Below the pieces are notes generated by a model. It had not been told where the DNA came from. It was given only the letters and a program-made list of their open reading frames with translations, and ran no database searches. Below, piece by piece: positions 1 to 32,996 of a stretch of 42,271 nt of DNA; within the stretch, counting starts at the first letter, position 1, and each line of letters begins with the position of its first letter. The stretch covers positions 1-42,271 of the forward strand of contig JABEVB010000011.1 of the NCBI GenBank assembly GCA_013044165.1, given 5' to 3'. The translations under genes and the position numbers were made by a program. The DNA is from Phycisphaerales bacterium. Lineage in GTDB: Bacteria > Planctomycetota > Phycisphaerae > WQYP01.

Positions 1-48
1 ACCTTTGGCTTCGGAGGCCAACGCTCTATCCAATTGAGCTACTAGCGC
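1..48 (-). tRNA. tRNA-Arg (anticodon CCG), 3' part beyond the window
   Basis: Read on the minus strand from position 48, the sequence has a 7-base acceptor strand GCGCTAG, then TA, a D-arm closed by GCTC/GAGC around AATTGGATA, and an anticodon arm TTGGC-CTCCGAA-GCCAA. The loop centre reads CCG, which decodes CGG arginine. The window edge cuts the gene in the variable region, so the T-arm and the acceptor 3' strand are not visible. Confidence 0.93.
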
Positions 49-8410: not shown

Positions 8411-10477
8411 ATGCTCAAACGGCGTTTAATTCTTCTTTTTGCAATTGTAGTGATGGTGGCAATCGCCATCGGCGCTCGCCTGGCAATCCTTCAGATTGTA
8501 CAGGCCAAAGAATGGAAAGCCCGCGCCCAGAGTTTTAACTATCGCCACTTTGTGATTCCGACCGTTCGCGGAGAAATTGTGGATGCCCGCGACCATGTGC
8601 TGGCCGCCGAGCAGCCATGCTATGACCTTGCCATTGATTACCAAGCCATGAACCACGACGATTCATGGATTAATCACACCGCCATCGAGCGTCTGCGGCC
8701 GCAATACCACAATTGGCGGGCACTTGTGGCGCACCTTCCGGCCATGCGCCGCGCCATTGCCGCCGATCTAGCCGCAATGCCGGCACTCATTGCCCGGCAT
8801 TGCGGCATAAGCTTAAGCAACGTGCTGGAACGCTTTGACGTTATTCGCTCGCGAATGCGGGCACTGCGCGAGGACATCTGGACTCTACGGTACGGCAACG
8901 ACGAGGATGTTCAAGCTGATGCATCGCCCGACGCGGTAGACCTTGATATGGGCATGCACGCTCGCATCAATCTTGCGGAAGCACACACCGCACATACGAT
9001 TGTGCCCGCCATACCGTCGGCCGTGGCGTTTTATTTCAAAAAACATGCCGACGAATATCCGGGTTTGGTGATTGTGCCCAGCACGGTACGACAATACCGG
9101 TATGACAGTGTGGCAGCGCAGGTAATTGGGGCGATTGGGCAGGTGACTCCGGACGAACTCAAGGCCGATTCGTTCAGGTTGCCGCGATTGATTCCGGGTA
9201 AACTCGCCGATACGCCCGGCAATTTACAGGGCTATCTGCCCGGTGATGAAACCGGGGCCTTTGGCGTGGAGTACGCCGCAGAGAAGGCCTTGAGGGGCGA
9301 CCGCGGTGTAAAGCTGGTTGATTTGAGCGGCCATGAGGTTACGTCGGTGCGGCGCAACCCGGTGCCGGGGCGAACGATTCATTTAACGCTCGATATTAAG
9401 TTACAGCGAGAGATTCAGCGCAGGGTGGCCGATCCTACAACCGGGCTTTTTGATGTAGATGGCGTTGGGCATCCGGCGGCGGCGGTTGTGCTTAAGGTTC
9501 GCAACAGCCACGTTTTAGCCATGCTTTCTTTGCCGAGCTACAATCTCAACACCTACCATCAGGATTATGACCAACTTGTAAAAAATCCGAATTTACCGCT
9601 GCTTAACAGGGCGGTGGCGAGTGCATATCCACCGGGCAGCACGGTCAAACCGCTGTTGGCGGCCTGGGCGCTAAGCCACGGGGTCATTTCGCCCCAGACC
9701 ATTATTGTGTGCCACGGGTATTTATTTCCGGGGCATCCGCACCAATTCAGGTGTTGGGCGTGGCGCACCGGCGGCCACGGCCCGGAGAATGTGGTACAGG
9801 CGATTGAGCACTCCTGCGATGTATTTTTTTATACGGTTGGTATGCGTCTGGGCTACAATCGGTTGATTCATATTTTTAGAGCGTACGGTCTTGGCCGGTA
9901 CACCGGCGTGGCTCTGCCCGAAGAAACATCCGGTTACCTGCCACGGCGGCGGCGGGGCAAGCTTCGGGCGAGTGATCGCACCAATTCAATTTTTATGGGT
10001 ATTGGGCAGGGACCCATTGCCTTTACGCCCCTGCAAATGGCTGGCGCCTATGCAACCCTGCTGCGCGGCGGCGTTTGGATGCCAATAACTCTCATGCGCG
10101 GCCGGGCAACGCCGCCGCTCCAGCGGCCCAATGTGCGTATAACTTCCGCGGCTTTAGCCGAGGTGGAGGCGGGCATGAACCTGGTGGTGCATGGAGCCGG
10201 CGGTACCACGCACGCACTGCAGATGGCTATTCAAGTTGCCGGCAAAACGGGTACTGCACAGACGGCTCAGGTGCAGTTAATCAATGGCAAAAAGGCCGTG
10301 GTTAAAGGCGATGATGGCTGGTTTGTGGGCTATGTGCCGGCCGATCATCCAAAATATGTCATTGCCGCCGTGGTGGAAATGGGCGGTGAGGGCGGTTCGT
10401 CGGCGGCGCTGTTGGTGCGGCAGTGTGTGCTGGCGCTGGAGACTCGTGGATATTTGCCGAAGGTGGACAAGCCTTGA
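8411..10477 (+). CDS. mrdA: Penicillin-binding protein 2 (peptidoglycan D,D-transpeptidase, elongasome)
   Basis: Class B PBP of 688 residues that cross-links lateral-wall peptidoglycan. One N-terminal membrane anchor (about residues 4-27) is followed by the PBP dimerisation domain, which contains RGEIVDARDHVLA near 54-66. The transpeptidase domain then follows. Catalytic motifs: S410 in STVK (410-413), SCD at 468-470 and KTG at 612-614. SxD instead of SxN in the second motif is usual for PBP2. GGAG lies 5 bases before the ATG. There is an insertion of about 100 residues (95-200), rich in Ala/Arg, between the anchor and the rest of the dimerisation domain. The 3' end overlaps rodA by four bases. 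Confidence 0.95.
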   Translation: MLKRRLILLFAIVVMVAIAIGARLAILQIVQAKEWKARAQSFNYRHFVIPTVRGEIVDARDHVLAAEQPCYDLAIDYQAMNHDDSWINHTAIERLRPQYHNWRALVAHLPAMRRAIAADLAAMPALIARHCGISLSNVLERFDVIRSRMRALREDIWTLRYGNDEDVQADASPDAVDLDMGMHARINLAEAHTAHTIVPAIPSAVAFYFKKHADEYPGLVIVPSTVRQYRYDSVAAQVIGAIGQVTPDELKADSFRLPRLIPGKLADTPGNLQGYLPGDETGAFGVEYAAEKALRGDRGVKLVDLSGHEVTSVRRNPVPGRTIHLTLDIKLQREIQRRVADPTTGLFDVDGVGHPAAAVVLKVRNSHVLAMLSLPSYNLNTYHQDYDQLVKNPNLPLLNRAVASAYPPGSTVKPLLAAWALSHGVISPQTIIVCHGYLFPGHPHQFRCWAWRTGGHGPENVVQAIEHSCDVFFYTVGMRLGYNRLIHIFRAYGLGRYTGVALPEETSGYLPRRRRGKLRASDRTNSIFMGIGQGPIAFTPLQMAGAYATLLRGGVWMPITLMRGRATPPLQRPNVRITSAALAEVEAGMNLVVHGAGGTTHALQMAIQVAGKTGTAQTAQVQLINGKKAVVKGDDGWFVGYVPADHPKYVIAAVVEMGGEGGSSAALLVRQCVLALETRGYLPKVDKP

Positions 10478-11694
10478 ACACCTCATTCAAATCGTCCAGC
10501 GGTGGCAGCGTTATTACGCAACAATCATTGCGACCCGAGCCTGCGCCCGGGCCTTACGATACTGGGTCTTCGCCTCGACCGGGTCGGCAGCGCAAACATC
10601 TGGTGCGGCGTTTGTTGGCCAACCAGATTGCATGGATTTTGCTTGTGGCGATGCTGCTGCTTTGCTCGGCGAGCATTGCGGCGCTGCGGGTTGTTTCCAC
10701 GCGAATGGCGCACGTTCAAGAATTGCACATTCTGGTGGGGCTGGTGGGCCTTTTTGTCGTGCTTGTACCGAGCTATCGCAGTATGGGGCGTTACAGCTAT
10801 GTGTTTTATGCTATCAGCCTGGCTTTGCTGGCAGGCGTGCTGTTCGCCCCGGCTATTAAAGGCTCCCACCGATGGTTTGTGCTGGGTGGCGGCGTAAACC
10901 TGCAACCCAGCGAGCTGGCCAAAATTGCCTTTGTGATGGCGGTAGCCTGGTCGCTGCGACGGCATCGCGATTGCCGCGAGCTGGGCCGATTGCTCACGCC
11001 GTTTATTTTAATGCTGTTGCCCATGGGCCTTATTTTAAAAGAATCGGACCTCGGCACGGCGCTGCTGTTTCCGATGGCGCTATATTGCATGCTCATAGCG
11101 GCTGGGGCACGTTTTCGGCATCTGCTGGCCATCGCATTGATTGTGCTTTCCATTGCGCCAGGTTGCTACCCATTGCTTAAAAGCTATCAAAAGCAGCGCA
11201 TCATAGCCATGCTGGTGCAGCGTAAACCTACCTATCACCAGTTGCACGGCGACTTGTACCAGCAGCAACAGAGCGAAATTGCCGAAGGTTCAGGCGGAGT
11301 AATGGGGCAGGGACTCTCCGGCGCAAACCAGATACGCCACGGGCTGCTGCCTGAAGCCGGCAACGACTTTGTGTTTGCTGTGGTGGCCACTCAATGGGGT
11401 TTTGCGGGGGGGGCCGGTGTGCTGCTGTTGTATGTGGTATTTTTTGGCGGCTGCATGGAAACGGCCGGTTCTGCCCCCGACAGCTTTGCGCGCCTGCTTG
11501 TGGTTGGGCTTGCGAGTATGTTGATTCTGCAGGCCACCATCAACATCGCCATGACCACCGGCTTGATACCGGTGGTGGGCATTACGCTGCCATTTCTATC
11601 CTATGGCGGCAGTGCCATTGTTACCGACATGTTGGCCACCGGCTTGATTCTGAACGTGGCCCTGCGCCGCGAACGGCCTTTGGCTCCGCTGTAA
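10474..11694 (+). CDS. rodA: RodA-type SEDS peptidoglycan glycosyltransferase
   Basis: Polytopic SEDS protein of 406 residues, partner of the upstream PBP2. It polymerises lipid II into glycan strands in the inner membrane. Landmarks: GSHRWF followed by LQPSELAKIAF, ESDLGTALLFP (contains the essential SEDS aspartate), GLLPEAGNDFVFAV and the C-terminal LPFLSYGGSA. I chose TTG at 10474: it overlaps the mrdA stop (TTGA), an AAGGTGG lies about 8 bases upstream, and it makes a coupled gene pair. The first 50 residues are a hydrophilic Ser/Pro/Arg-rich extension not usual in RodA. FtsW is the alternative, but the PBP2 neighbour favours RodA. Confidence 0.93.
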   Translation: MNTSFKSSSGGSVITQQSLRPEPAPGPYDTGSSPRPGRQRKHLVRRLLANQIAWILLVAMLLLCSASIAALRVVSTRMAHVQELHILVGLVGLFVVLVPSYRSMGRYSYVFYAISLALLAGVLFAPAIKGSHRWFVLGGGVNLQPSELAKIAFVMAVAWSLRRHRDCRELGRLLTPFILMLLPMGLILKESDLGTALLFPMALYCMLIAAGARFRHLLAIALIVLSIAPGCYPLLKSYQKQRIIAMLVQRKPTYHQLHGDLYQQQQSEIAEGSGGVMGQGLSGANQIRHGLLPEAGNDFVFAVVATQWGFAGGAGVLLLYVVFFGGCMETAGSAPDSFARLLVVGLASMLILQATINIAMTTGLIPVVGITLPFLSYGGSAIVTDMLATGLILNVALRRERPLAPL

Positions 11695-11881
11695 AGCGTC
11701 TACACTTTGAGAATGCGAGCTGTCCTCACACGCTGTCATCGCAGGCGTCCCTCTGTCGGCGCTCTTTTAGTACCGCATGTGTTGTGATGCCACCGTCGGC
11801 ATTGGCGCACCTGCTCGCCAAACTTTCCGGCGGTCGCGAAGAGGCTCCGGCAATGGCATGGTGTTTTTGTGTTTTGGGTGA

Positions 11882-12901
11882 TTATGTGATAACCGGCGGC
11901 TTTTCGCTGAAGCGCTCGCGTATGGCGATAAATGCTGCTTCGTTGGCCAAAAATGCGTTGACAATGTCGCGGTCAAATTGCGTGCCCGAAGCACTGACAA
12001 TCATGGATTTGGCAATCTCATGGGAAAACGCATCCTTGTATAAACGTTTGGATGTCAAAGCGTCGTAGACGTCGGCCACGGCCACAATGCGGCCGCTTAA
12101 TGGTATCTCAGGGCCGCGCATCTGCAGCGGATAGCCGGTGCCATCAAAGCGTTCATGGTGGGTGGCGGTTATTTCGCGCGCCATCCGGAGGAACTCCGCC
12201 CGTGGAAATTTCTTCAGGGCGATGTCAATGGTGTTGGCCCCAAGAATGGTGTGTGTTTTCATCAGGGCGAACTCGCGGTCGTTCAATTTGCCGGGCTTCA
12301 GGAGCACATAATCCGGTATGGCAACCTTGCCAATGTCGTGCAACGGACTTGTGAGATAAATCCAGCGGATAAAATCGGCGGAAATAGCCGAACCATGCGA
12401 GTCGCGTCCGGCGAGGTACTGCGCCAAAATACGTGAATAACTTTGTACGCGTTCGAGGTGCATACCGGTTTCAGGATCGCGCGACTCGGCAAGTTTGGCC
12501 ATCGCGAAAATTGCCACGTTGCGGGTATCAAGTGAAAGCACTCGCTCGCCGGAGCGCACGCGGGCCACGAGTTCATCCTGATCGAATGGCTTGCTGATAA
12601 AGTCGTCGGCTCCAGCACTTAGCCCTCGCACCCGCTCCTGCGGGTCGTCGCGGTCGGTTAACAGGATGATGTAGACGTAACCCCACATTTCTTCGCGGCG
12701 AATGGTTTGGCATAACTCGAGGCCGCCGATTGTTCCGGGGAAGTTCCAGTCTGCGACCACCAAATGTGTAAGGCCTTGGCGAACGATCTCCAGAGCTTCG
12801 TCGCACGTGTCGCAGGCAATTATTTCATAACCGGCGGCGGTGAGCGTGTTTTTTATGATGGAGAGTGTTACTGTATCGCTATCTACCGTGACTACCCGCA
12901 T
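11882..12901 (-). CDS. Response regulator with HD-GYP c-di-GMP phosphodiesterase domain
   Basis: A 339-residue two-domain protein. REC domain about 1-120, with phosphoacceptor D51 (VADWNF), acidic D7/D9 and K104 in SKPF. HD-GYP domain about 125-335, with HD at 188-189 and HHERFDGTGYP at 248-258, so the metal-binding and GYP residues are intact. It should hydrolyse cyclic di-GMP when its (unseen) sensor kinase phosphorylates it. A longer reading frame extends to 13081, but ATG at 12901 is right: AAGGAAGG lies just upstream and the REC domain begins at once. It is convergent with rodA and has no kinase beside it. Confidence 0.94.
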   Translation of the reverse strand: MRVVTVDSDTVTLSIIKNTLTAAGYEIIACDTCDEALEIVRQGLTHLVVADWNFPGTIGGLELCQTIRREEMWGYVYIILLTDRDDPQERVRGLSAGADDFISKPFDQDELVARVRSGERVLSLDTRNVAIFAMAKLAESRDPETGMHLERVQSYSRILAQYLAGRDSHGSAISADFIRWIYLTSPLHDIGKVAIPDYVLLKPGKLNDREFALMKTHTILGANTIDIALKKFPRAEFLRMAREITATHHERFDGTGYPLQMRGPEIPLSGRIVAVADVYDALTSKRLYKDAFSHEIAKSMIVSASGTQFDRDIVNAFLANEAAFIAIRERFSEKPPVIT

Positions 12902-13350
12902 GAAACCTTCCTTGTAAACGCCGCGGCAACCGGGTGCTGCATGTTGGCTTACCATGCCTGCTCTATTATCGGCAGGCGCGTGCCCTGCGCCGCAGTCCCG
13001 ATAAAAGCCTCCGCCACCCGCGATGGCCACCGCAAAGCAGGGAATATTGTATACCAGAGGGGCGAATTGTGCCGTGAGCATGCGAGTGTGGAACCACCGA
13101 GCCAGCCGTGCATCTAAAGAGGGTGGATGGAAGTCATGTGTAAGGAGAATCGGTTATAAGCAGCCTTGTTGGCCAAAGGGACGCAAGAGCATAGTCCTTT
13201 TCAATCAGAGGCGGTAAGCGATGTAACTGCCGCTGTCAGAAATAGAGTGTGGTGCACGAGTCGTTTATGGCAGCAGTGTTTTTGGCTAAGCCGTTGGCAT
13301 GCATCCTTAGGCATGCGACAATCTCCAACGTATGTGTCGGGAGCCGCCCT
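12902..13350. other. Divergent intergenic region (449 bases)
   Basis: It lies between the HD-GYP gene (leftward) and the tandem-module gene (rightward) and must hold both promoters. I see no convincing gene. A hairpin GGCGGT/ACTGCC (13210-13231) follows a GGGACGCAA stretch (13178-13187). These two pieces recall part of a class I c-di-GMP riboswitch, but the required 5' half is absent. The ribosome-binding sites of the two flanking genes are at its two ends. Confidence 0.4.
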
Positions 13351-16158
13351 ATGGTGAATTGTTTCATGCCTTGGAAAAAGCGGCAGGGGCTATTATGTGG
13401 GGTGCTTTGGGCGGGATTGCTGCTGGCAGGGGCCACCCGGGCGCATGCACGAAGCCTGCCGCCAATTGTCATGACCGGTGCGGTCAGAGCGCACATAAGC
13501 CAACAGGCCCTGCAGCAGTGGGTTCAGGATTTACAGAGCCAGGATGCCAAGGTGCGCCGGCGGGCCTTGGTCGGTCTGGTGCAAAGTGGCGAGCCTGCAA
13601 AAGACGCATTGGTTAAGGCCCTTAACGGTCTCACCACCCCGCTTATGCGGCAGCACCTCCATGCGGCTCTTCTGCAGGTGGCCAGACATAGCGCTGTAGG
13701 AAGTCCACGCGTTACCCTGCGGATGTCCGATGCGCCTGTTAAGAATGTGCTCCAACGGCTCTGCCAGCAAGTAGATCCGTACTCGCAGTTGCAACTAACA
13801 CTATCCCAACATTTTTCAATGCCGCGTTTAACAATAAATGTCCGTCACGCTTCTTTCTGGAAAGTCATCTGCCGAATAGCGAAAGAAAGCGACATAAGCC
13901 CGGCAGCGGGCGACGCCTATGACGCAACTGGAGTGTGGAACTTTTCGAGTATGAGCGGTATCACCCAGAAAACGCCGGTATCGGTGCGCGGCCCGTTTCT
14001 GCTCGATATCTCCGATCTATACGCCCGGCAGAGCATAGATTTTACCCGTGGCTTGGCGCAACGTCCGCCAATGCTTCAGATTGAATTCAATGGGTTTTGG
14101 TGCCCGGCCAAGAGCCGAATACTTGGCACCGGCCCCGCAGTCATCCGAACCCTGAGCGTTGACGACGTCAAGTCGTGGAATTCGCGCGGCGGCCGTATGC
14201 CGCCGCTGCTGGCAAACGTTCAATCGAACGGGATCCGCAATAGCTACGCAGGAATTAGTATGTTTGCCGACGTTCCCTGGTCTTGGACCACGGGGCGTAG
14301 AATCTCAGCGATAGCCGGTAAACTTCCGGTTCGCCTGGCAATTGCGCCGCGCACCGACATTTTTAAGCTCGCCGGCAAGGTCACAACCCTCAAATTCGAC
14401 GGACTTAAAGTTCGTATTATGCCCCAGCAGCCGAAGCCGGCGGCAAAGCCCGGGGGGGCTGGTTCCGATCATGTGGTGACGGTTGATGTTTTGGAGCGCG
14501 GTTCGGCTACAATGGTTCCGATGTCCGCGCAATTCCTGCGCTGCCTGCCCACAGCAGCCTTCGGCTATGTGGCAAGCCTTGGCGGCGAAATTGGATTTCT
14601 AAAGGCCGACGGCACGAGCGTGCCTTGCAGGTTGGGTCGTTCGGTCGGTGGTTCAGGATGGCGGTACCGCGTACACTTTCAGTCTGGCCTGCCAAAAAAG
14701 GTGTGGATCACAACGTACCACGGATTTGTCCAGGCGAGCGAGCGATTCAGATTTAATAATGTCCCGCTTCCGGCTGCGGCTGATGCGACCAAAGCCGTGG
14801 AAGGCAAGCCATTCCTCTTACCTGACCTGCGCATCCAGCGAAGGAGGCTCTTAGGCGGCCAAAGTGCCCCGATTGAACCAAGGGTGATTGACTTGGCCGT
14901 GTTGAACCGGCACATCGCTCAGCTCGCCGAATACAGTCGCACCACGCAAGCCTCGGCGCGGCGCTCGCTCTTGGCGCTTGGGCCTGAAGCTATTGCCGCG
15001 ATCCGGGAGGCGATAAATGGTTTGCGCTCGCCCCAAGAACGCGGGCGATTGGTTGATATATTGGCCTGTCTTGAAGAGCAACGAGCGCTGCGCGGTCCGC
15101 TTGTAGATGTGTCTACCGGTAGTGCAAACATTGCCGCAGGTCTGAAGCATATTTTTGACCAAATACATGGCAAATTTACTGTGGGCGCTTCGGCTATTCA
15201 TGGCTGGCGGCCGAAGAAGGCGATTAAAGCAAAAATGGAGTTCTGGCAAGCCGTTCGATTGATTTGTTCCGGTTCTGGTATTGGCCCGACGATTGGCTGG
15301 GATGAATTTAATCCGAGCCGCGTCGTAACCTTCGGCCCAAGGAGTATTCTTGGTGCGTACGTTCCGCGCGAACTGACTGGTAGTTGTCTGTTGACTGTGC
15401 CGACAATTCAGCGCTCAGAGGATGAAGAACTCGCCTTGGGCTTTCGTGATGATCCCAATGGCGTATTGCTGAAATTCCTGATTTTGTGGGCCTCGATACG
15501 CGGGGAGGTAATTGAGCAAATGGGGCATTTGCAAGCGCATGTGAGCGTGTTAGGTCGTACGCAGGCTTTGATTAAAAAGATATCCATTACGAGTCCAAGC
15601 GTATTTTGGCCGAAGGTGGGGCAAATGGTTTTTCCATTTCGACTGCCGCTCGGTCAACTGCCGACAAATGCGGCGAGCCTGAATATTGACGGCCAATTAA
15701 GCGTTTATATCGCCGGCTTGCGCATGACGCGTGAGGCGGAGGGGCTGGATCGCTTTGGTGCTGCAATCAACTTCCCAGGCATGCAATTTCACTTTGGGGC
15801 GCCTCTCAAGACTTCGAAGCGTTACCGGGTGATTATGCGGGTTATTTTACCGAATATGTTCTACGGCGGTGGATCACGACGGCACTGGATTGCTTTTGGT
15901 GGTTTGCAATTGCTGCATTATTTCAGGCGGCGCTGGGGCCACTCTCACGAACTGGTATTTCTATCCAGGACGGGGCGTACTCTGAGCACTGTCAGCAAAC
16001 TGCGTTTTCGGTATACATCGCCCGGCAACTGGGCGGACCGCATTGCAGCGGTGGAAGTAACTGGAGGTAAGCCCGTGGCCGTGAAAATTAAATGGTTCAC
16101 GCGAACCATACGTTTGAAGATACCCTTTAGTTTCGCTGCGATTCCGGTGCCGCAGTAA
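13351..16158 (+). CDS. Exported protein with two copies of an unrecognised HEAT-like/STN-like/beta module
   Basis: A 935-residue protein with a signal peptide (about 1-34, hydrophobic core LLCGVLWAGLLLAGA, cleavage near AHA-RS). GGGAG precedes ATG 13351; a longer frame from 13249 lacks this. Residues about 50-475 and 515-935 are two repeats of one module. Each has (1) a short helical repeat (RRRALVGLVQSG at 70 and ARRSLLALGPEA at 536), (2) a segment with alternating strands and helices resembling the secretin/TonB short N-terminal (STN) domain, ending in FWKVICRIA (169) or FWQAVRLIC (631), and (3) a long beta-rich part closing with a VPLP-like or PVPQ end. The next gene carries a third copy. 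No catalytic motif is visible. Function unknown; periplasmic or outer-membrane scaffold is a guess. Confidence 0.85.
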   Translation: MVNCFMPWKKRQGLLCGVLWAGLLLAGATRAHARSLPPIVMTGAVRAHISQQALQQWVQDLQSQDAKVRRRALVGLVQSGEPAKDALVKALNGLTTPLMRQHLHAALLQVARHSAVGSPRVTLRMSDAPVKNVLQRLCQQVDPYSQLQLTLSQHFSMPRLTINVRHASFWKVICRIAKESDISPAAGDAYDATGVWNFSSMSGITQKTPVSVRGPFLLDISDLYARQSIDFTRGLAQRPPMLQIEFNGFWCPAKSRILGTGPAVIRTLSVDDVKSWNSRGGRMPPLLANVQSNGIRNSYAGISMFADVPWSWTTGRRISAIAGKLPVRLAIAPRTDIFKLAGKVTTLKFDGLKVRIMPQQPKPAAKPGGAGSDHVVTVDVLERGSATMVPMSAQFLRCLPTAAFGYVASLGGEIGFLKADGTSVPCRLGRSVGGSGWRYRVHFQSGLPKKVWITTYHGFVQASERFRFNNVPLPAAADATKAVEGKPFLLPDLRIQRRRLLGGQSAPIEPRVIDLAVLNRHIAQLAEYSRTTQASARRSLLALGPEAIAAIREAINGLRSPQERGRLVDILACLEEQRALRGPLVDVSTGSANIAAGLKHIFDQIHGKFTVGASAIHGWRPKKAIKAKMEFWQAVRLICSGSGIGPTIGWDEFNPSRVVTFGPRSILGAYVPRELTGSCLLTVPTIQRSEDEELALGFRDDPNGVLLKFLILWASIRGEVIEQMGHLQAHVSVLGRTQALIKKISITSPSVFWPKVGQMVFPFRLPLGQLPTNAASLNIDGQLSVYIAGLRMTREAEGLDRFGAAINFPGMQFHFGAPLKTSKRYRVIMRVILPNMFYGGGSRRHWIAFGGLQLLHYFRRRWGHSHELVFLSRTGRTLSTVSKLRFRYTSPGNWADRIAAVEVTGGKPVAVKIKWFTRTIRLKIPFSFAAIPVPQ

Positions 16159-16350
16159 GCCATACGATGCGCGATGCACTAGGGGCAACTCGAATTGCGA
16201 CAATCGAATTGTGGCGCATCGGCAAGCTGGATTTGCTCGTGCCCGCCCTCAGCAGTGGCCAAGCATTTGGCTGCGTCGCACCGAATGCTGGAGTTAATGG
16301 GTATTGCTGTCCATAACGCTGCAATCGGCAGCAGTTGCGCAGGAGCTTCA

Positions 16351-17778
16351 ATGAAATTCGTGGCGATCACAACATGGGCGATAGGCGCGGCCTGTTCGAT
16401 GTGCTTTGGTACGTATCTGCAAGGCGCTGCGGTTGATAGGCTGGTGCAGATCAATATGCCGAAGGCCGAATTGAGACCACTCGACCTCGCCGCAGTTAAA
16501 GCCTTTATAAGGCAGTTGCGGAGTGTCAACGCGGCGGTGGGGCGGCTGGCGCAATACAAGCTTTTGGCGATGGGGGAGCGTATCGAGCCTTTGCTGCAGC
16601 AGGCGCGTGACGCCCCATCCACACCGGCGGAGCGGGCGGCGCTCGACGCAGTGCTCCGAAAACTGGCCTGCCGAAACGTCATCGCCGGCCCGCTGATTAC
16701 GCTGCATCTGCGAAACGTTACTCTGGCTGCCGGGTTGACACGCCTCTGTCGGCAGGTTGGCTTTTACCCCAACTTTTTTCCACCTTTCCAGAGCGGTGCG
16801 CCTATGCCAACTTATTTTCGCACGATACACATGAACCTTGACGTAAGCAATGCGCCCTTTTGGCAGGTACTCCGAGCAATTTCCAAGGCAACCGGCTGCG
16901 GACCTGTACCAGGGGCATCACTTTCATTTGATCGTCAGCTTTCGGCATTTTCGGGCAATCATCCCTTTTGCATTTCAGGCGGTTATCTGTTTGTCCTGGA
17001 AGGTTCAAACAAAAATCGCCGTCTTCGGTTGAAAGGCTGGGCCAGCCATCGCACGGTCATTCGACCGAGTCTTCGACTGCAGGTTTTGTGGTGTCCCAGG
17101 GGCGAACATCTCGTTCAAATTGGCCCAATACACATAACTGCGGCCACGGACAGCCAAGGCAAGTCTTTGCTATTGCCGGTCGTTCCACAACACCACCGTC
17201 CGTATTGGCGGCTTGGCGATGGCACCGAAGGCTCGCTACGCTGGTGGTACAGTGGTACACCATTGAGCTTACGACTTGCATCAAGCAAAACCAGGCATAT
17301 ATCGGTTCTGACTGGCTTTATGCCGGTGGTGGGGTCTGCAGGACCGCACATGTATATAGGCCGACATGGCACAAAACAGTGGATGGTCGTACAGGTTGGC
17401 GGCCTTCGGGTGGTGCTTGACCAGCCAAGGTCGTTCGCACTGCCGCGACCGGAGGGTGTGGCAAATCAGGCTCCCACAGAAGCTTGGAAGGTTGCTTTCC
17501 GAATGGAGGCGGTCTATTTGACCGGAGAAGCCGGCAAACGCTACGCGGAAACCATGAAGCAGATTCTGTGGTCAAATGCCATTCAAATGTTTGACCATGC
17601 GGGCAAGCACCTCAAGATAGTTGCCCCCATAAGAGACTACTATGCGCCGCTGCCGCACCATGGAGTTGTGACCGTGTATGGCGGTTTACCCACCTCGGTC
17701 GGGGTGATCATTGACCGTTTTCCTCGCGCTCGGATGAAAGTGCCTTTTGTTTTTCACAATGTCTCGCTGCCAGAATGA
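16351..17778 (+). CDS. Exported single-module paralogue of the preceding protein
   Basis: A 475-residue protein with a hydrophobic N-terminus (AITTWAIGAACSMCFGTYL) that is a signal peptide. AGGAG precedes ATG 16351; the frame runs open to 16195 but without a ribosome-binding site. It has one copy of the module found twice upstream: a helical repeat at about 46-105, PLITLHLRNVTLAAGLTRLC at 114-133, FWQVLRAISKATG at 170-182, and a C-terminal beta-rich half ending with PFVFHNVSLPE, parallel to RFRFNNVPLP and PFSFAAIPVP in the neighbour. Gap to the upstream gene is 192 bases. The pair likely arose by tandem duplication. Function unknown. Confidence 0.83.
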   Translation: MKFVAITTWAIGAACSMCFGTYLQGAAVDRLVQINMPKAELRPLDLAAVKAFIRQLRSVNAAVGRLAQYKLLAMGERIEPLLQQARDAPSTPAERAALDAVLRKLACRNVIAGPLITLHLRNVTLAAGLTRLCRQVGFYPNFFPPFQSGAPMPTYFRTIHMNLDVSNAPFWQVLRAISKATGCGPVPGASLSFDRQLSAFSGNHPFCISGGYLFVLEGSNKNRRLRLKGWASHRTVIRPSLRLQVLWCPRGEHLVQIGPIHITAATDSQGKSLLLPVVPQHHRPYWRLGDGTEGSLRWWYSGTPLSLRLASSKTRHISVLTGFMPVVGSAGPHMYIGRHGTKQWMVVQVGGLRVVLDQPRSFALPRPEGVANQAPTEAWKVAFRMEAVYLTGEAGKRYAETMKQILWSNAIQMFDHAGKHLKIVAPIRDYYAPLPHHGVVTVYGGLPTSVGVIIDRFPRARMKVPFVFHNVSLPE

Positions 17779-18128
17779 GCGAAAGCAACCGGTGTCTATG
17801 CAGTTGCGGACTGCGCAACATCAACAGGCTTGCGCATTGATTTGTTGATGGTGCGCTGGTCAAACATCAAGCGTTTGCGCCGGCGTGCGTCTGTCGTGTA
17901 TCTCGAAATTGCGTGGTTGGTACGATGGGCGCTGCCAGTCATTTATAAATAGATGAAAAATGAAGACTATTTGGGTGGGCCATTGTGCGGCCCGCCCCTG
18001 ATGGCGCCGGACGGCGATATTGTATACGGCGTCGCTCATTTTTGCCTTGCAGCAATATTTTGGGAACCGCCTGACCGCTCGTGCATCCAAGAGCGGTGTA
18101 GAGGTCATGCGCTTTTGGAGAAATAGCT
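17779..18128. other. Intergenic region (350 bases) with a strong hairpin
   Basis: No gene seen. A 9-bp stem GGGTGGGCC / GGCCCGCCC (17973-17981 and 17989-17997, one G-T pair, 7-base loop) lies in the middle. No T-run follows on either strand, so it is not a standard intrinsic terminator. The right end holds GGAG 9 bases before the next start. Confidence 0.45.
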
Positions 18129-24941: not shown

Positions 24942-26030
24942 TTATGCAGCGGTTGGGGCTGGCTCGGCGGTTCGGTTTTCGGACATCGCCATCGTCGAGG
25001 GCCAAGCCGGCGATTCAATCGGCTCGGCACATCGGCCTGCGTCATACTCCGCCCGCCACGCCAGAAAAGCGTCAATCACCCGATCAAAATCTTCCCGCGA
25101 GTTGATAACGCGCATGGCGTCGCGCAACTGTCGGCATGGGTTAAGATGCTTGGCGTACCAGCTTATTCGCTTACGAAATTCACATACGGCCACGCGCTCG
25201 TTACGGTATTTGATAAGGTTATAAAAGTGATCGCGCATCATTTGGCATTTCTCCTCAACGCTTGGTGGCGATGGGATCACGCCGGTGGCCAGGTAGCTGT
25301 GGGTATCGCGAAAAATCCAAGGTGCGCTCAGCGCCGCCCGGCCAATCATAACGCCGGCGCAGCCGGTTCGGGCGATCATTTCCCTGGCGTCTTGGGGCGA
25401 TTTGATGTCCCCGTTGCCAATAACGGGTATCCGCCGAACTGCCCGTACGACAGCGGCTATGCCATCGTGCCGCACCGTGCCTTGAAATCGCATTTCGGTG
25501 GTGCGGCCATGCACCGTAACCGCGGCAATGCCGATGTCTTCAAGGCGACGGGCAAGCTCCGGCGCGACAATGCGGTTATCGTCCCAACCCAGGCGCATCT
25601 TGGCCGTTACCGGCACGTGCCGCACGGCGCGAACAATTTGCTCTGTTAGGCGCAGCGTGCGATTAATATCGCAAAGCAGAGCCGAGCCGCCATCGCGTTT
25701 GGTGATTTTATCCACCGGGCATCCCATGTTGATGTCTACAATGGCGGCGCCATGGTCTTCGGCCCAGCGGGCGGCTTCGCACAGCCGTGAGGCGTCTGAG
25801 CCATAAAGCTGCATGGCCAGAGGCGAATCGTTCTCGCAGGTAGCGGCAAGTTCCATGGATCGCTTGTTTTCGCGGAGCACGCCTTCCGGGCAAAGCAGGT
25901 CCGTGCAGGCCAAGGCGACGCCGCCGCAGGCCCTTGCCACGAGCCGAAATGACAAGTCGCAGTAGCCCGCAATCGGCGAGAGCAAAAGGTTGCCGGCAAG
26001 TTTTACGGATCCAATATTCATAACCACCAT
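24942..26030 (-). CDS. dus: tRNA-dihydrouridine synthase (DusB-like)
   Basis: FMN-dependent enzyme that reduces uridines in tRNA. 362 residues from ATG 26030; ATG 26021 is equally possible and a frame to 26087 exists, none with a clear ribosome-binding site. Motifs in order: SPIAGYCDLSFRL (FMN barrel start), QLYGSD, DINMGCPVDKITKRDGGSALL with the catalytic cysteine at residue 104, VTAKMRLGWDD, VTVHGRTTEMRF, VIGNGDI and GVMIGRAALSAPW (phosphate-binding end of the barrel). FRKRISWY near the C-terminus matches the helical RNA-binding domain. RDGG in place of the usual KxxAGS is a small variation. The subfamily (A, B or C) is uncertain; DusB fits best. Confidence 0.93.
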   Translation of the reverse strand: MVVMNIGSVKLAGNLLLSPIAGYCDLSFRLVARACGGVALACTDLLCPEGVLRENKRSMELAATCENDSPLAMQLYGSDASRLCEAARWAEDHGAAIVDINMGCPVDKITKRDGGSALLCDINRTLRLTEQIVRAVRHVPVTAKMRLGWDDNRIVAPELARRLEDIGIAAVTVHGRTTEMRFQGTVRHDGIAAVVRAVRRIPVIGNGDIKSPQDAREMIARTGCAGVMIGRAALSAPWIFRDTHSYLATGVIPSPPSVEEKCQMMRDHFYNLIKYRNERVAVCEFRKRISWYAKHLNPCRQLRDAMRVINSREDFDRVIDAFLAWRAEYDAGRCAEPIESPAWPSTMAMSENRTAEPAPTAA

Positions 26031-26398
26031 GCATATGCGGCAAATACGCAGTAACGCTGCACGTTCGCGGCCCTGACCGAGCGCCACAAGCGTGGATTAT
26101 TCTACCTGCTTTTTGGGCTTGGGCGAAGCGGTACGCGACGGGGATGAGAATAGGTGAGTCCAGCTGGTAAGTCCTGCCCAAACGATTCTTCATCGCACCG
26201 AGACTTCATCGTTCAAGGCTCGACAGGTGATGGATTGCCGCGTGGTTGTGATTGTGCGTATTCGCCACACCCACAAGCCCAGGACGGATTCTTGGTCGCG
26301 GGCCGGGCTCGAGACGCAAGCCGCGAAAAGGGGTGACTGATAATCGAGTGAGCGAGGCCACAGTGGCTGATGTGAGGGCAACCGGAAAAGCTGCCTGG
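26031..26398. other. Intergenic region (368 bases) between dus and the SIR2 gene
   Basis: Both flanking genes run leftward, so this holds the end of the SIR2 transcript and the dus promoter. I found no gene, no clear terminator and no direct repeats that would mark insertion of the SIR2 gene. Confidence 0.35.
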
Positions 26399-29300
26399 TC
26401 ATCCGTCCGCGACGTCGCTCCATGCGTGCCTAATCTCCGAAAATTCCTCCGGATTTTCGCATTGCTGATGCCAGTCTCTGACGACTTGCGGTGAGTCTTG
26501 TCTCTTGGATTTGTAATATTTTTCTAAGGTCGCTGATAGAGTGGCCGCCGCACGGCGCACTTCTAATTTTTCATCAAAAGTTAAGTATGGATTGTCCTTT
26601 TCATACGCTGTTTCACCAAGCAGCCTCTCTAGCCGCCTTGCAGTCGCGTCTTTCAACTTTTCGGTAAAATCTCTTGGCTGCCTTTTCAGGATATGAACAA
26701 CGATCCCAATCGCAGTTGTGATGTTCCGGGCCGGGCACCAGCCGAGATGATCGCAAAGCATCCCTAACGGATCGTTTTCGTCGGGAACTGTCATAATATC
26801 AGTACGACCAAAAATCATTTTTCCGATCGCCCTGAGCCCGTCAGTTGTGATGCTACCTTTATTTGACGTTAGGGCGTCGTTGATCCCTTTACAAACAGCA
26901 GATTTCTCCTCGGGAAATATAGGAAGACACGCCGCCCGAGCCGCCAAGACCGACAGGCCGCGCTCCTTTGCTTCCGACAGAAGTTGGCTGAGATTCAATT
27001 TAATTGCCTTAGCAGGATTGACGTCGAGCTTTGGCCCCACAACCTCGGCCAGTAAATCGATCAACCGGGAGAACCTTAACCGGAACTCCTCTGATATTGA
27101 TAAGAAACCGCTGGCGGAGTCGCCCACTCCGTTAAGTCGTCCTTTGTCCGCGTTCCACCATTCGCTCAAACGTTGTAAAAAGCCGGTGGCATCCTTGGCC
27201 GTCCAAATGCCTTTTCCTTTGCGATTTGCGCCAATGATTTCGTAAACCAACGGGATATTTCCACCCGTCATGCCGATGCCCGCGTCCTGGTTATTTCCCT
27301 GAATTGGGAATTGTGTTTCTTGGACATAGTGCTTAAAAAGTTTAAGAGGATCCACGCGCCGAGGGTGTGGCAGGCTTAAGAAAACAAATTTGTAGAAGTC
27401 GGTGTCCATTGGCATCTTAAAACTATCTTTTTTGAGCCAAATGTTTTGCCCGAGATCCTCGCTTTGCTTGGCACTGAGCAAACCCAACCTGTGGAGCGTA
27501 ACCAGGGAAGAAATCGCCCAGCGTCGCCGTCCCGGCTCGTCCGACGCAGACTGGTTCAACAAATCGGCCACCGTGGCAGGTTGAATTTCTAAGGCTGGCG
27601 TGCGGCTGGGCTTTTGATGGAGGTCGAGGATCAGAAATGGGTTCGGAAGGTCCCGTTCGACGACAAAATTCACATCTGCGGGATAGGATATTTTTAGCAG
27701 GCTCGGGATGAGTTGGTACCGCTCCATTTTAGACATAGAGCTTAACAGGCGTTTGGTCAACTTCCCTAAATTGCGGTAGGCTGCTTTCTCTTGAGATGCA
27801 TAAACCCCTGCAACAGAATCAAGTATGCGTCCCTTCATCTGGAAAGTGCATTTGCAACACAATCTCGAAATAACTTCGGGTAGTGTTTGGGCGATCCGGA
27901 AGCTGAGATCGCCAGCGCGTATATTACCTCGGCATTTGTCGAGTGAATCAAGATAACCCTTGACAAGGGCGTCTGCCATTGGGGCGGTATGGCCGTACAG
28001 CGACTCACGGCTGAACACACTGTCAACGGCGTCAGCTTCGCCTGTTCTCACAAGCGTTGCAGTTGCCCAATAGAATGAGTAACGCGAGATGTGCCGCAGG
28101 CTAGCGACGGCGGTATCTGTTGCCAACGCATAATGGCCGATGCGAAATGGCAGACCAGCCTCTTCACAAAATCTGAGGAAAGTAACGGCCGCGAATATTT
28201 CCTGGTCAATGCTACTGTGGTGCAACGTTCGGCTGACGTGACCGATATCAAATTCGGGACGCTCGGTTACACCCGCTCTCCGGCAGGGCGAATTTTCCAG
28301 ACGCAGCTTGAACAACTCCAATTCATTCCACGGATCACACCGGAAGGCCTTAAGCTCGTTCCACCGGGCGTTTTGGTACATTAGTTCAGTCGTGCGCCGT
28401 TTGTTACGTATCCTCTCGAGTAGTAGATCCCAATCAACTTTCCGATCGCCTGAACGCTTATCAAGGAGGTCTTGCCAATCGTCGTCAAAGCAGTTGAATT
28501 GCTCCTGCCGCTTGATTATGTGGATGGTTTCAGGAGTCGGCTCCTGCCCTCTTGGGTGCCCAGCCCATTCGTTTTGGAGGTGATCCTGCATCTGTTGCCT
28601 CTCTTCGGCTGTCGCATCCGTAGGGGCGGCCCGACTGGTGGCATCTTTTACGTAACGCGAGATCATCATCTGGTATGCTTCATTCGAGAGCATTAGGTAA
28701 TTCGGTGGGGTTGCATATTCTGCATTTCGTTTGCGAGACTCCTTTAGGGAAAGCTGCATTTGATCGTCCACCTGGCTACGCGGGCTGATCTCGGCGAGTG
28801 CCGCTGCACGCTTGGCCATCCAATATGGCTGCGATCCTTTAACGTGCCAAGTGTCAAGACGTTGTTTGGTATTCGGCAAATTTAGAGTGAAAAGTTCAAA
28901 GAGAAAGCCTTCGTAACTCAGGAACTGCTTCTGCTCGTCTGAGAGGCGGCCAGTGAGGCTGTTGAGTTGGACTTCTGCGTCCCGCCATTTGCCAACATTC
29001 CCCTGTTCACGATAATACCTCAACATCGCAAGCTTGATTGCAATCCACGCTGGCTGGATATCATTCCATTGTGGCCTCCGGTGTTTGTTTTCCCCGCAGC
29101 CGACCCCTGAAAGTTTATTGGAAAGCTCCGTGCGGAGCTGCCAGTATTGTTTGAGAATCTTCTCATTAAACTCCGCAAACTCCTCGGGAATTGGCACCAG
29201 GCATCGCTCCAGCCGCCAGTTAAGCTCGAATGCGTATTCAATGTCCTGCCCATCTAATGTTGATGGCAGGGTGGGAAGGTAATACACCCACCACCGCGTA

Positions 29301-30319
29301 AATGCCCAGAGCGTCTCGCGGTTGGCATGCGGCAGGATAAGCCAGCCGGGGTAGCTTTGCCTCTGCCCCCGCCATTCTTCGGTAATTTTCCGAATCCCGT
29401 CGGCCGACGCCGGCTCGCGACCAGGGTGCATGGTTTTGGGCTGATAGGGCCAATCGAGGAGGTACGGCTTTTGTGACCGCAAATATTCAAAAAATTTCTG
29501 TAACGCTTTCTCATGGTCAGAACTGTCGCCCCCAATGCAGCAGGATAGGTCAACAACGACAATCCCGCGCTGCGCCAGCAGTTGTAGTCTGGCTGATGAG
29601 AGGTCAAAAACCCCGACTAAATATATTTTTTGCGTTCTATCTTTCCCGAGATTGTCGCGAATCCAGCCAGTCCATTGCAGGAAGTTTGGATCATCGCCGG
29701 AGAACCCTATCAGGCAGAACGTATTTTCCAAAAGCGACTGTTGGACGGTATTAACAAAAGGCGCGTAGTCATGCGGATAGCGCCGATAGTCCTCTTCAGT
29801 GATGATAAACGGTCGCTCAGAAGGGAAACTGCCGTGGAGCTTCATAATTCGAGGCCTGACGGCGTACGGTATATCCTCTTTGGTAACCACAGGCTCATAC
29901 CGCCGAGTGATGACTTTGGTGCTGGCCCGTTCCAGCAAGGTATCAAAGTTGGTGGTAAACACATCAACCCATGGCAATTCCAGCAGATCAACGTGAATCG
30001 AGGACGGCTCGACCGTTAAATCCGGGATATTGGCTCGCAGCAGACTCTCGAGCGCCGGCCGACCGATTGCAGCCTGTACATCTTCCGCGAGCCGCAATAA
30101 GTTCAGATATTTTAGTTTATTAGGATCAAGCTTCGTACCATGCGCTTTTGAATAGAACAGATCGCCCAATTGGTTCCAATCCGGGAAGTCCTCGCTCGCG
30201 TTCTTGCTAAAGCCAGCGCCAACCATGACGGCGGCACGCCCAGCCCATAGGCGGTCCGCGATTTCCTGCAGATAGGGTCGGATAGAATCTGGTACGTCGG
30301 TATCAAAGTCCTTACTCAT
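26399..30319 (-). CDS. Large SIR2-domain protein, probable Dsr1-like anti-phage NADase
   Basis: 1306 residues; AAAGGAG lies 4 bases before the ATG. The N-terminal SIR2-like NAD-binding domain (about 20-270) has VGAGFS at 33-38, TTNFD at 122-126 (N124), KLHGS at 160-164 (H162) and GFSGDDPNF at 205-213. N and H are 38 residues apart, the spacing I recall for the essential pair of the defence sirtuin DSR2. The remaining ~1000 residues are mostly helical, with no Walker A motif, so it is not an AVS/STAND or HerA-type protein. The domain plan and length fit single-gene Dsr1-type sirtuins (SIR2 plus DUF4020-like C-terminus), in which phage sensing triggers NAD+ depletion. No second component or immunity gene is adjacent. 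The assignment of the C-terminus is from memory of the family, not seen motifs. Confidence 0.8.
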   Translation of the reverse strand: MSKDFDTDVPDSIRPYLQEIADRLWAGRAAVMVGAGFSKNASEDFPDWNQLGDLFYSKAHGTKLDPNKLKYLNLLRLAEDVQAAIGRPALESLLRANIPDLTVEPSSIHVDLLELPWVDVFTTNFDTLLERASTKVITRRYEPVVTKEDIPYAVRPRIMKLHGSFPSERPFIITEEDYRRYPHDYAPFVNTVQQSLLENTFCLIGFSGDDPNFLQWTGWIRDNLGKDRTQKIYLVGVFDLSSARLQLLAQRGIVVVDLSCCIGGDSSDHEKALQKFFEYLRSQKPYLLDWPYQPKTMHPGREPASADGIRKITEEWRGQRQSYPGWLILPHANRETLWAFTRWWVYYLPTLPSTLDGQDIEYAFELNWRLERCLVPIPEEFAEFNEKILKQYWQLRTELSNKLSGVGCGENKHRRPQWNDIQPAWIAIKLAMLRYYREQGNVGKWRDAEVQLNSLTGRLSDEQKQFLSYEGFLFELFTLNLPNTKQRLDTWHVKGSQPYWMAKRAAALAEISPRSQVDDQMQLSLKESRKRNAEYATPPNYLMLSNEAYQMMISRYVKDATSRAAPTDATAEERQQMQDHLQNEWAGHPRGQEPTPETIHIIKRQEQFNCFDDDWQDLLDKRSGDRKVDWDLLLERIRNKRRTTELMYQNARWNELKAFRCDPWNELELFKLRLENSPCRRAGVTERPEFDIGHVSRTLHHSSIDQEIFAAVTFLRFCEEAGLPFRIGHYALATDTAVASLRHISRYSFYWATATLVRTGEADAVDSVFSRESLYGHTAPMADALVKGYLDSLDKCRGNIRAGDLSFRIAQTLPEVISRLCCKCTFQMKGRILDSVAGVYASQEKAAYRNLGKLTKRLLSSMSKMERYQLIPSLLKISYPADVNFVVERDLPNPFLILDLHQKPSRTPALEIQPATVADLLNQSASDEPGRRRWAISSLVTLHRLGLLSAKQSEDLGQNIWLKKDSFKMPMDTDFYKFVFLSLPHPRRVDPLKLFKHYVQETQFPIQGNNQDAGIGMTGGNIPLVYEIIGANRKGKGIWTAKDATGFLQRLSEWWNADKGRLNGVGDSASGFLSISEEFRLRFSRLIDLLAEVVGPKLDVNPAKAIKLNLSQLLSEAKERGLSVLAARAACLPIFPEEKSAVCKGINDALTSNKGSITTDGLRAIGKMIFGRTDIMTVPDENDPLGMLCDHLGWCPARNITTAIGIVVHILKRQPRDFTEKLKDATARRLERLLGETAYEKDNPYLTFDEKLEVRRAAATLSATLEKYYKSKRQDSPQVVRDWHQQCENPEEFSEIRHAWSDVADG

Positions 30320-31078
30320 ACTGCTCCTTTAGGGCCTGTGGGAGGTTGTTGGTGGCGGGATGCGGAGGCGTGGCAGGGGCGCCGGAATGCCAATGTCTCC
30401 GAGCCCCGGGAGAGCCAGGTTGGCTGGCCCCCTGCTACGCTGAGGTTGGCAGGCGTGCCCGCGCCGCAAAGCTGAGGGCGGGTCACAATGCCGGTCTGGG
30501 AATTTGTACTTGCGAGCATAGACAGATATCCGCATGCTATGAGTATAGAAGAAGCAATCGGCAGCCTCCTGTTGGAAACGCGACATTTGAACACATCGTC
30601 AAGCGAAGGAGCGGGTCGGAAGGTCTTGAGGCACCGGCCAGCCATGCCTTCATCGCCCAAGCATAATATCAGTGAATTTCTCGCTGCACCAAAAACAATA
30701 TTAAAATATAGCAGCTTCCTGCAGGATGGGCAATAATTTTTAGCGACAATTGTAAATCTGTTACGGGCCTGCGATGGGTTCTCCTCGCTGAGCCTAAATC
30801 AGAATGCATTGCCTTGGCGATGGCTCGCCTCAGCCTGAAAGGCTGGCTTTAAGAAAGCCTCAGCCGCGCCGGGACTAGCACAGGCTCGTGCGAAATTGAG
30901 GAACTTCTAGCTCGTATGAAAATTTGACATTTTGGAGAAAATCAAAGCGTAAGGCGGTAGTAGGGGCTGCGCCGCCAACCTCCAGCACCTATTGTCACGT
31001 CGACTGCAATTGGAGCATGCGAGTGAAGAACGGGATTCGCTGGCTAACGGAGGCTTAGGCTTTGTGGACTAGGCGGGC
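30320..31078. other. Intergenic region (759 bases) between the SIR2 and methyltransferase genes
   Basis: The longest gap in the window, and it must contain the SIR2 gene's promoter. Two adjacent hairpins sharing two bases are seen: CAGCC-TGAAA-GGCTG (30831-30845) and GGCTTT-AAG-AAAGCC (30845-30859). An open frame of 82 codons at 30488-30736 (+) starts with plausible residues (MPVWEFVLASIDRYPHAMSI) but has only a poor GGCGGG upstream and degenerates later. It could be a decayed gene start. No mobile-element gene or tRNA was found. Confidence 0.4.
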
Positions 31079-31927
31079 TTACGTCCGCGCGCCAGGAGAT
31101 TTCTGCAGGCGGTGGCGGGCAATGGCTACGGCGTGGCGGTTTTGGTCGCAACCGAGGAACGGTCGCTTGAGCATGGCAGCGGCCATCAGCGTTGTGCCCG
31201 AGCCGCAGAAAAGGTCGCCGACCGTACCACCTGGCGGACAAAGGGCCGTGATGAGCGTTTCTAAAAGGGCCAAAGGCTTTTGCGTGGGGTAGCCGGTGCG
31301 TTCGCGGGCCATAGGGTTGAGCGCGGGGATAAGCAGCACATCGTCCGGGTTTTTGTGGGTATTGGCAGCGCTGATGCGTGCGCCCTTTGGGTTGCGGGCG
31401 CGGTGCAGGGCCTTGGGTGTTCGCGGGATGGCGATGGCTTTGCCGTTAAAGTAGTGTTGGCCGCTTCGCGCATAGAGCAAAATGGTGTCGTGCTTACGCG
31501 AAAACCGCAGCGGACTTGCACCGCCGGTTTGATAATACCAGATGATTTCGTTGATGAACTTGTCAAAGCCAAACACTTCATCGAGCATGACTTTGGCATA
31601 ATGCACGCTGCGCCAGTCTAAATGAAGCAGCAATACGCCGTCGGCCTTAAGCACCCGATGAGATTCAACTGCAGCCTGTTTAACCATGGCGAGGTATTGC
31701 GCCAAGCCGCCGGGCCAACGGTCATCAAAGCCAGTGCCGATGGCGGGAGTTTCGCGGCGGGGCGCGATGTTGAATCGGCGGTTGGTAAAGTAGGGTGGGT
31801 CCAGATAAATAAAGTCGAAGGTTGCTGCGGGCAGCCTTTGCGCAAAATCGGCACAATCGGCACAGTGAACGGTATTCCATGCTGGCGGCGCAGGGGCATG
31901 CAGCGGCAGGCGTGGAAGTTTTGGCAT
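31079..31927 (-). CDS. Solitary beta-class DNA adenine/cytosine-N4 methyltransferase
   Basis: A 282-residue SAM-dependent enzyme that methylates the exocyclic amino group of adenine or cytosine in DNA. Catalytic motif IV, DPPY, is at 43-46 and SAM-binding motif I, DLFCGSGTT, is at 238-246, with YPTQKP (213-218) just before it. The order IV then I defines the beta class. IIWYYQTGG (128-136) is also typical. The size suggests little or no target-recognition insertion. No restriction endonuclease gene is adjacent, so it is an orphan or a remnant of a system. It starts 46 bases after the DAHP synthase gene ends, same strand, so it may be co-transcribed with it. The target sequence cannot be read. 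Confidence 0.92.
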   Translation of the reverse strand: MPKLPRLPLHAPAPPAWNTVHCADCADFAQRLPAATFDFIYLDPPYFTNRRFNIAPRRETPAIGTGFDDRWPGGLAQYLAMVKQAAVESHRVLKADGVLLLHLDWRSVHYAKVMLDEVFGFDKFINEIIWYYQTGGASPLRFSRKHDTILLYARSGQHYFNGKAIAIPRTPKALHRARNPKGARISAANTHKNPDDVLLIPALNPMARERTGYPTQKPLALLETLITALCPPGGTVGDLFCGSGTTLMAAAMLKRPFLGCDQNRHAVAIARHRLQKSPGART

Positions 31928-31973: not shown

Positions 31974-32996
31974 TTAAATATCGCGATCTATGGCGGCGGC
32001 AATTCGCTTGAGCGACGCCATCGTGGCTTTGAGCGACTGTGGCGTCACAGACTGTGCACCATCCGTGAGCGCGTGCTCCGGGTCGTTATGCACTTCAACA
32101 ATCAGGCCGTCGGCTCCGCAGGCGACCGCCGCTTTGCACATGTCGGGCACCAGGTGTGCATGGCCAGTCCCCTGGGAGGGATCTACCACAATGGGCAAAT
32201 GGCTGATGCGATGTACCTCAGGGACGATCGCCAGCGGCAGGGTGTTGCGGCAGTATTTTTCAAAGGTGCGAATGCCGCGCTCGCAAAGCATCACATTGCT
32301 GTTGCCACGCGACATGATGTATTCGGCTGCCAGCAAAAATTCTTCGAGCGTGGCGCTTAGGCCGCGCTTAAGCAGCACGGGCTTTTTTTGTTCGCCGACG
32401 GCCCATAGGAGGTTGTAGTTTTGCATGTTGCGAGCGCCCACCTGCAGCACGTCGGCGTATTGGCATACGAGAGGCACTTGCTCGATGGACATAACCTCTG
32501 TAACGACGGCGAGGCCGGTTTTTTCGCGGGCCTGAGCCAGTATTTGCAAACCCTTTTCGCCGAGCCCCTGAAAGGCGTAGGGGCTTGTGCGGGGCTTGAA
32601 GGCACCGCCGCGAAGGCCGGTGGCTCCGGCTTCTTTGACGGCATGGGCAATTTCGAGGAGTTGGGAGCGGTCTTCGACCGAACAGGGGCCGGCTATAAGC
32701 GCTACCTTTTTGCCACCGACCGAGCCGCCCAGCGAACCACCGAGTGCCACGACCGTTCGCTCTTTTTTTACCTCGCGGGAGGCCATTTTGTAGGGGGCCA
32801 GCACAGGCATTACTTTTTCGACGCCCGGGGCGTTTTCAAGTTTGTCCTTGTCTTTTGCGCGATCGTCGCCGAGGGCGGCCACCACGGTGCGTTCGGTGCC
32901 GACAATAATATGTTCGCGCAGGCCCATTTCTCGCAGGAGGCTAACAACGTGGTTAACCTGCGATTCAGTTGCGCCCATTTCCATTACGATGATCAT
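31974..32996 (-). CDS. aroF: 3-deoxy-7-phosphoheptulonate (DAHP) synthase
   Basis: First enzyme of the shikimate pathway: joins phosphoenolpyruvate and erythrose 4-phosphate. 340 residues. An N-terminal ferredoxin-like domain (about 1-70) resembles the feedback-regulatory domain of Thermotoga-type enzymes. The catalytic barrel begins with [12 protein letters not shown] (98-109), then [15 protein letters not shown] (130-144), [33 protein letters not shown] and VDPSQGTGH. These are the metal and PEP ligands of the AroA-I-beta (KDO8P-synthase-like) class. AAGGAG lies just before the ATG. aroA is 2 kb away on the other strand. The symbol aroF is used for the reaction, not for E. coli orthology. 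Confidence 0.95.

Follow-up and report, generated by a model that had tools for sequence, protein, structure and literature searches.

A Dsr2-family SIR2 protein gene in a Phycisphaerales genome, a candidate single-gene defence system, and its comparison with DSR2 of Bacillus subtilis

The gene and its surroundings

The window, by which is meant the whole analysed stretch of 42,271 nucleotides from contig JABEVB010000011.1 of a Phycisphaerales bacterium, carries on its minus strand a large gene at positions 26399-30319. The reading frame is real, starts with ATG, and codes for a protein of 1306 aa. The attribution of the DNA to a planctomycete-like genome, made in the initial annotation from the letters alone, was right. 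The features of the gene, all on the minus strand, are as follows.

26399..30319, minus strand: gene of a Dsr2-family SIR2 protein, 1306 aa (NCBIfam NF041819, 1420.9 bits, residues 10-1300; PADLOC Dsr2, 1335 bits)
30324..30328, minus strand: Shine-Dalgarno sequence AGGAG shortly 5' of the ATG, a good ribosome-binding site (from sequence)
29468..30319, minus strand: SIR2 domain, residues 1-284 (PF13289; AlphaFold model of residues 1-690 and its Foldseek matches to DSR2 SIR2 domains)
29948..29950, minus strand: codon (AAC) of predicted catalytic N124, equivalent to N133 of B. subtilis DSR2 (conserved in 63/63 sequences)
29834..29836, minus strand: codon of predicted catalytic H162, equivalent to H171 of DSR2 (conserved in 62/63, exception L028)
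26402..29467, minus strand: residues 285-1306, middle and C-terminal part built of helical repeats, presumed to serve as connector and sensor (AlphaFold pLDDT 86.6, pTM 0.84; HEAT/ARM-type matches)
28370..28612, minus strand: insertion, residues 570-650 (of the 62 other full-length members, just 7 have residues here)

The gene order on the minus strand is aroF (31974-32996), a DNA methyltransferase gene (31079-31927), the Dsr2 gene, and dus (24942-26087). The initial annotation had placed no partner gene within 750 bases on either side; this stands upstream, where the methyltransferase gene is 759 bases off, but not downstream, where dus, coding for a dihydrouridine synthase, is only 311 bases away. 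As a housekeeping gene, dus was rejected as a defence partner. The 282-aa methyltransferase was rejected as well; it is probably chromosomal, as orthologues with 56-63% identity occur elsewhere in five relatives that do not carry the sirtuin gene. The neighbours of the Dsr2 gene in the window are the apparently chromosomal methyltransferase gene and housekeeping genes, with no defence island or mobile-element marks near it and no partner gene found. Scans for flanking repeats, tRNA genes, and promoters around the gene returned chance-level matches only. A tRNA gene truncated by the contig end was recognized at window positions 1-48 (Rfam RF00005). On another contig of the same genome (C61, locus L156), a second defence-like cluster is located at 10343-17787, comprising a type IIG restriction enzyme split over two frames, a protein with an NYN domain, and a SIR2 protein of 591 aa that is similar in its SIR2 part to Argonaute-associated systems.

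Family assignment and the active site

The protein matches the NCBIfam equivalog model NF041819, named Dsr2, with 1420.9 bits over residues 10-1300 (model positions 1-1215), a score that barely exceeds the curated cut-off of 1400 bits. In PADLOC, Dsr2 (PDLC02184) was the best match with 1335 bits, followed by ThsA over the SIR2 part only. The SIR2_2 domain (PF13289) was recognized far above chance, with 76.9 bits and an E value of 2e-21. The initial proposal of a single-gene SIR2-domain anti-phage NADase of the Dsr group is supported, as a candidate, by these matches to defence profiles. The protein had been called Dsr1-like, and this was wrong. By sequence models it is Dsr2 as defined by NF041819 and PADLOC and not Dsr1, because NF041819 is matched above its cut-off and the Dsr1 models in NCBIfam (NF041818) and PADLOC are unmatched at E values up to 1. 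Membership in the Dsr1 family, with protection of the cell without killing it, would agree with the similar size class and with the N-terminal SIR2 domain followed by a long C-terminal region, but given the lack of any Dsr1 match in collections that include NF041818 it is extremely improbable. The name Dsr2 reportedly traces to a screen from 2020.

Within this known defence family, the gene is unremarkable. It shares with other NF041819/PADLOC Dsr2 proteins the full-length match, the SIR2 domain with a long helical region, and the single-gene organization, and differs from most of them by an insertion of about 80 residues (570-650). ThsA of Thoeris is similar in the SIR2 domain (PADLOC E value 2e-25; PDB 7uxt, 8wc0, 6lhx), but its match stops at about residue 234, and the present protein has a helical region instead of SLOG and no ThsB partner. 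No SLOG domain was found in a Pfam scan of the protein, and none of the neighbours scanned is a TIR gene.

One genome scan returned 369 relatives of the protein. These relatives, together with the NCBIfam and PADLOC models spanning its whole length, contradict the earlier view of the C-terminal sensor as new in sequence. Sixty-two full-length relatives from about 17 phyla, including archaea, were aligned with the present protein (63 sequences, 27-61% identical). The SIR2 landmarks reported earlier are all in place, namely GAGFS at residue 34, TTNFD at 122, KLHGS at 160, and GFSGDDPNF at 205, and the last two are near-invariant in the alignment. The asparagine and histidine are separated by 38 residues, as had been noted. 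N124 is invariant, and H162 is kept in all but one sequence. The exception is the closest relative, from Desulfobacteraceae UBA2245 (L028, 10001-13939), with Asn at the position of H162. Not every member therefore has an active histidine; this protein might lack activity, or activity might not depend on the histidine. In several members the reading frame is broken in two (L088, 3244-7030, Candidatus Brocadiaceae; L044, L065, L073, L083, and L055), and these are either pseudogenes or assembly errors. A distant member of about 1180 aa was found on the faecal phage genome PV036459.1 (L024, 5070-8615).

Predicted structure and comparison with B. subtilis DSR2

The AlphaFold model of residues 1-690 has a pLDDT of 83.9 and a pTM of 0.62. 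When it was searched with Foldseek, all 50 PDB matches listed were cryo-EM chains of DSR2 structures. Against the SIR2-only DSR2 chains, TM scores were 0.83-0.86 with an rmsd of 2.7-3.4 Å, while alignments to whole DSR2 chains extend into the helical region over 617-838 columns with TM scores of 0.35-0.43 and large rmsd. The likeness of the models to DSR2 beyond the SIR2 domain is suggestive only. Residues 285-1306 were modelled with a pLDDT of 86.6 and a pTM of 0.84 as an all-helical solenoid, in agreement with the roughly 1000 helical residues claimed from the sequence; the absence of a Walker motif also held, as the Walker A pattern [AG]x4GK[ST] does not occur in the protein. The PDB matches listed for this model are CAND1, karyopherins, and other helical-repeat proteins, with TM scores below 0.3, and DSR2 is not among the 50 listed. 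A profile of the region revealed armadillo repeats near its C-terminal end. According to the model, residues ~285-1306 are most likely a HEAT/ARM-like solenoid, which would be a candidate sensor.

The solved DSR2 structures (PDB 8k98, 8wy8, 8wks, and others) are of the B. subtilis protein, which is activated by a phage tail tube protein and inhibited by DSAD1 (PMC10981675, PMC10973363, PMC11263360, PMC11290490). Its NADase activity is lost on mutation of N133 or H171, residues with the same spacing of 38 (PMC10981675). The present protein resembles it in the predicted SIR2 fold (TM score 0.86), in the N-H spacing, and in the layout of a SIR2 domain followed by a solenoid, but it is about 300 residues longer, belongs to a different sequence model, and has no detectable homology to it in C-terminal sequence. 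The stand-in for sequence comparisons was a Priestia plasmid protein with an end-to-end match to solved B. subtilis DSR2 (1254 bits); in scans of viral contigs, nothing close to B. subtilis DSR2 was found. This Priestia homologue is unmatched by both the NF041819 and the PADLOC Dsr2 models. When the present family was compared with it by profile, only the SIR2 domain was detected (probability 99.2%), and hhalign of the C-terminal regions gave a probability of 0.8%. A weak match to the DSR2 group was found in the middle region. By sequence, the name Dsr2 thus appears to be common to two groups that share the SIR2 domain and perhaps the middle region, with an undetectable relationship between their C-terminal sequences.

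A mechanism exactly as in B. subtilis, where the solenoid would clamp the monomeric phage tail tube protein and the SIR2 NADase would be activated, is rather unlikely for the present protein. The common SIR2 fold and SIR2-helical layout, the Foldseek alignments continuing past the SIR2 domain, and the weak middle-region match would agree with it. It is opposed by the hhalign result, by the profile search, in which SIR2 was the only domain matched, by the missing DSR2 among the listed matches of the C-terminal model, and by the failure of the Dsr2 models to recognize a full-length DSR2 homologue. Because no C-terminal sequence relationship is detectable, the tail-tube trigger cannot be inferred for the NF041819 family; it is not transferable by name, and its carry-over was rejected. 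Tentatively, and at somewhat less than even odds, NF041819 Dsr2 may be a SIR2 defence system distinct from the structurally studied DSR2, its HEAT/ARM-like sensor being larger and directed at another phage component; for members within hsd operons, there may be a link to the condition of the type I restriction enzymes.

Distribution, gene company of the relatives, and proposed function

None of 60 related genomes, including 27 of the same family, has the Dsr2 gene, and a broader sample of the phylum contained only one other full family member, the two-frame L088 (genome G308). Its G+C content of 51.5% is the lowest among the 19 window genes compared. In the FastTree tree, it was placed in a fully supported clade of 11 in which it is the only planctomycete sequence; the other members are from Thermodesulfobacteriota, Verrucomicrobiota, Bacillota, Pseudomonadota, Lentisphaerota, and Moraniibacteriota. 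Given the absence in relatives, the lowest G+C content, and the grouping with other phyla, the gene was probably acquired horizontally, which is the simplest reading of the sequences. In the empty-site comparison, the insertion point was not found, and the neighbourhoods of dus and of the methyltransferase gene are non-syntenic in the relatives.

Among the 62 full-length loci, a type I restriction-like gene is present within 6 kb in 11, a raw count without a formal background control. Recurring neighbours are hsdM (8 loci), hsdR (6 loci), two hsdS clusters (4 and 3 loci), and integrases; as nearest neighbours, hsdS accounts for 6/110 and integrases for 4/110. In five loci (L026, L049, L050, L059 from Halomonas, and L061), hsdS ends 6-74 bases upstream of the sirtuin gene on the same strand. 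The type I restriction operons of L049 (8607-16869) and L061 (6060-15786) enclose the sirtuin gene, with hsdS on one side, hsdR on the other, and all three genes on one strand; the gaps in L049 are 6 bases to hsdS, which precedes it, and 9 bases to hsdR, which follows. A conserved partner gene was rejected, since no neighbour recurs in most of the 62 relatives and restriction genes reach 11/62 at most. The relatives are found in the company of defence islands, and, because no gene generally accompanies the family members, the comparison of loci supports a single-gene system residing in such islands.

Anticodon nucleases embedded in hsd operons are triggered when a phage disables the type I restriction enzyme. 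A similar role, with the family guarding restriction-modification and responding to its loss, would explain the several members lying within hsd operons so close to hsdS, but most members, the present one included, are not adjacent to hsd genes, and defence islands alone would explain the proximity; this role is improbable for the family as a whole. A cellular sirtuin without a role in defence, that is, a deacetylase or ADP-ribosyl enzyme of host metabolism, would agree with the housekeeping genes adjoining it in the window. The sporadic distribution with cross-phylum transfer, the absence in the 60 related genomes, the defence genes around the relatives, and the defence-type SIR2 family make such an enzyme even less probable than a restriction guard.

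With a probability of about 85%, the gene codes for a Dsr2 defence protein that works as a single-gene system and was gained by horizontal transfer, a SIR2 NADase with a solenoid sensor acting by abortive infection. In the resting state, it would form a silent oligomer driven by the SIR2 domains. On infection, the solenoid (residues ~285-1306), with a phage protein as the presumed trigger, would bind a phage product; the SIR2 assembly would be distorted, and NAD+ would be hydrolysed at the N124/H162 site. With NAD+ destroyed, phage production would come to a halt and the cell would be sacrificed. Infection-triggered hydrolysis of NAD+ is the best explanation because N124 and H162 (N133 and H171 of DSR2) and the fold are preserved.

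Annotation pipelines label the NF041819 family as Dsr2, while the solved structures and the tail-tube trigger belong to a protein whose close homologue is missed by those models, and transferring the trigger by name would mislead. The present gene adds a further Dsr2 to a phylum that has been little studied, and the useful part of the finding is the warning about the name.
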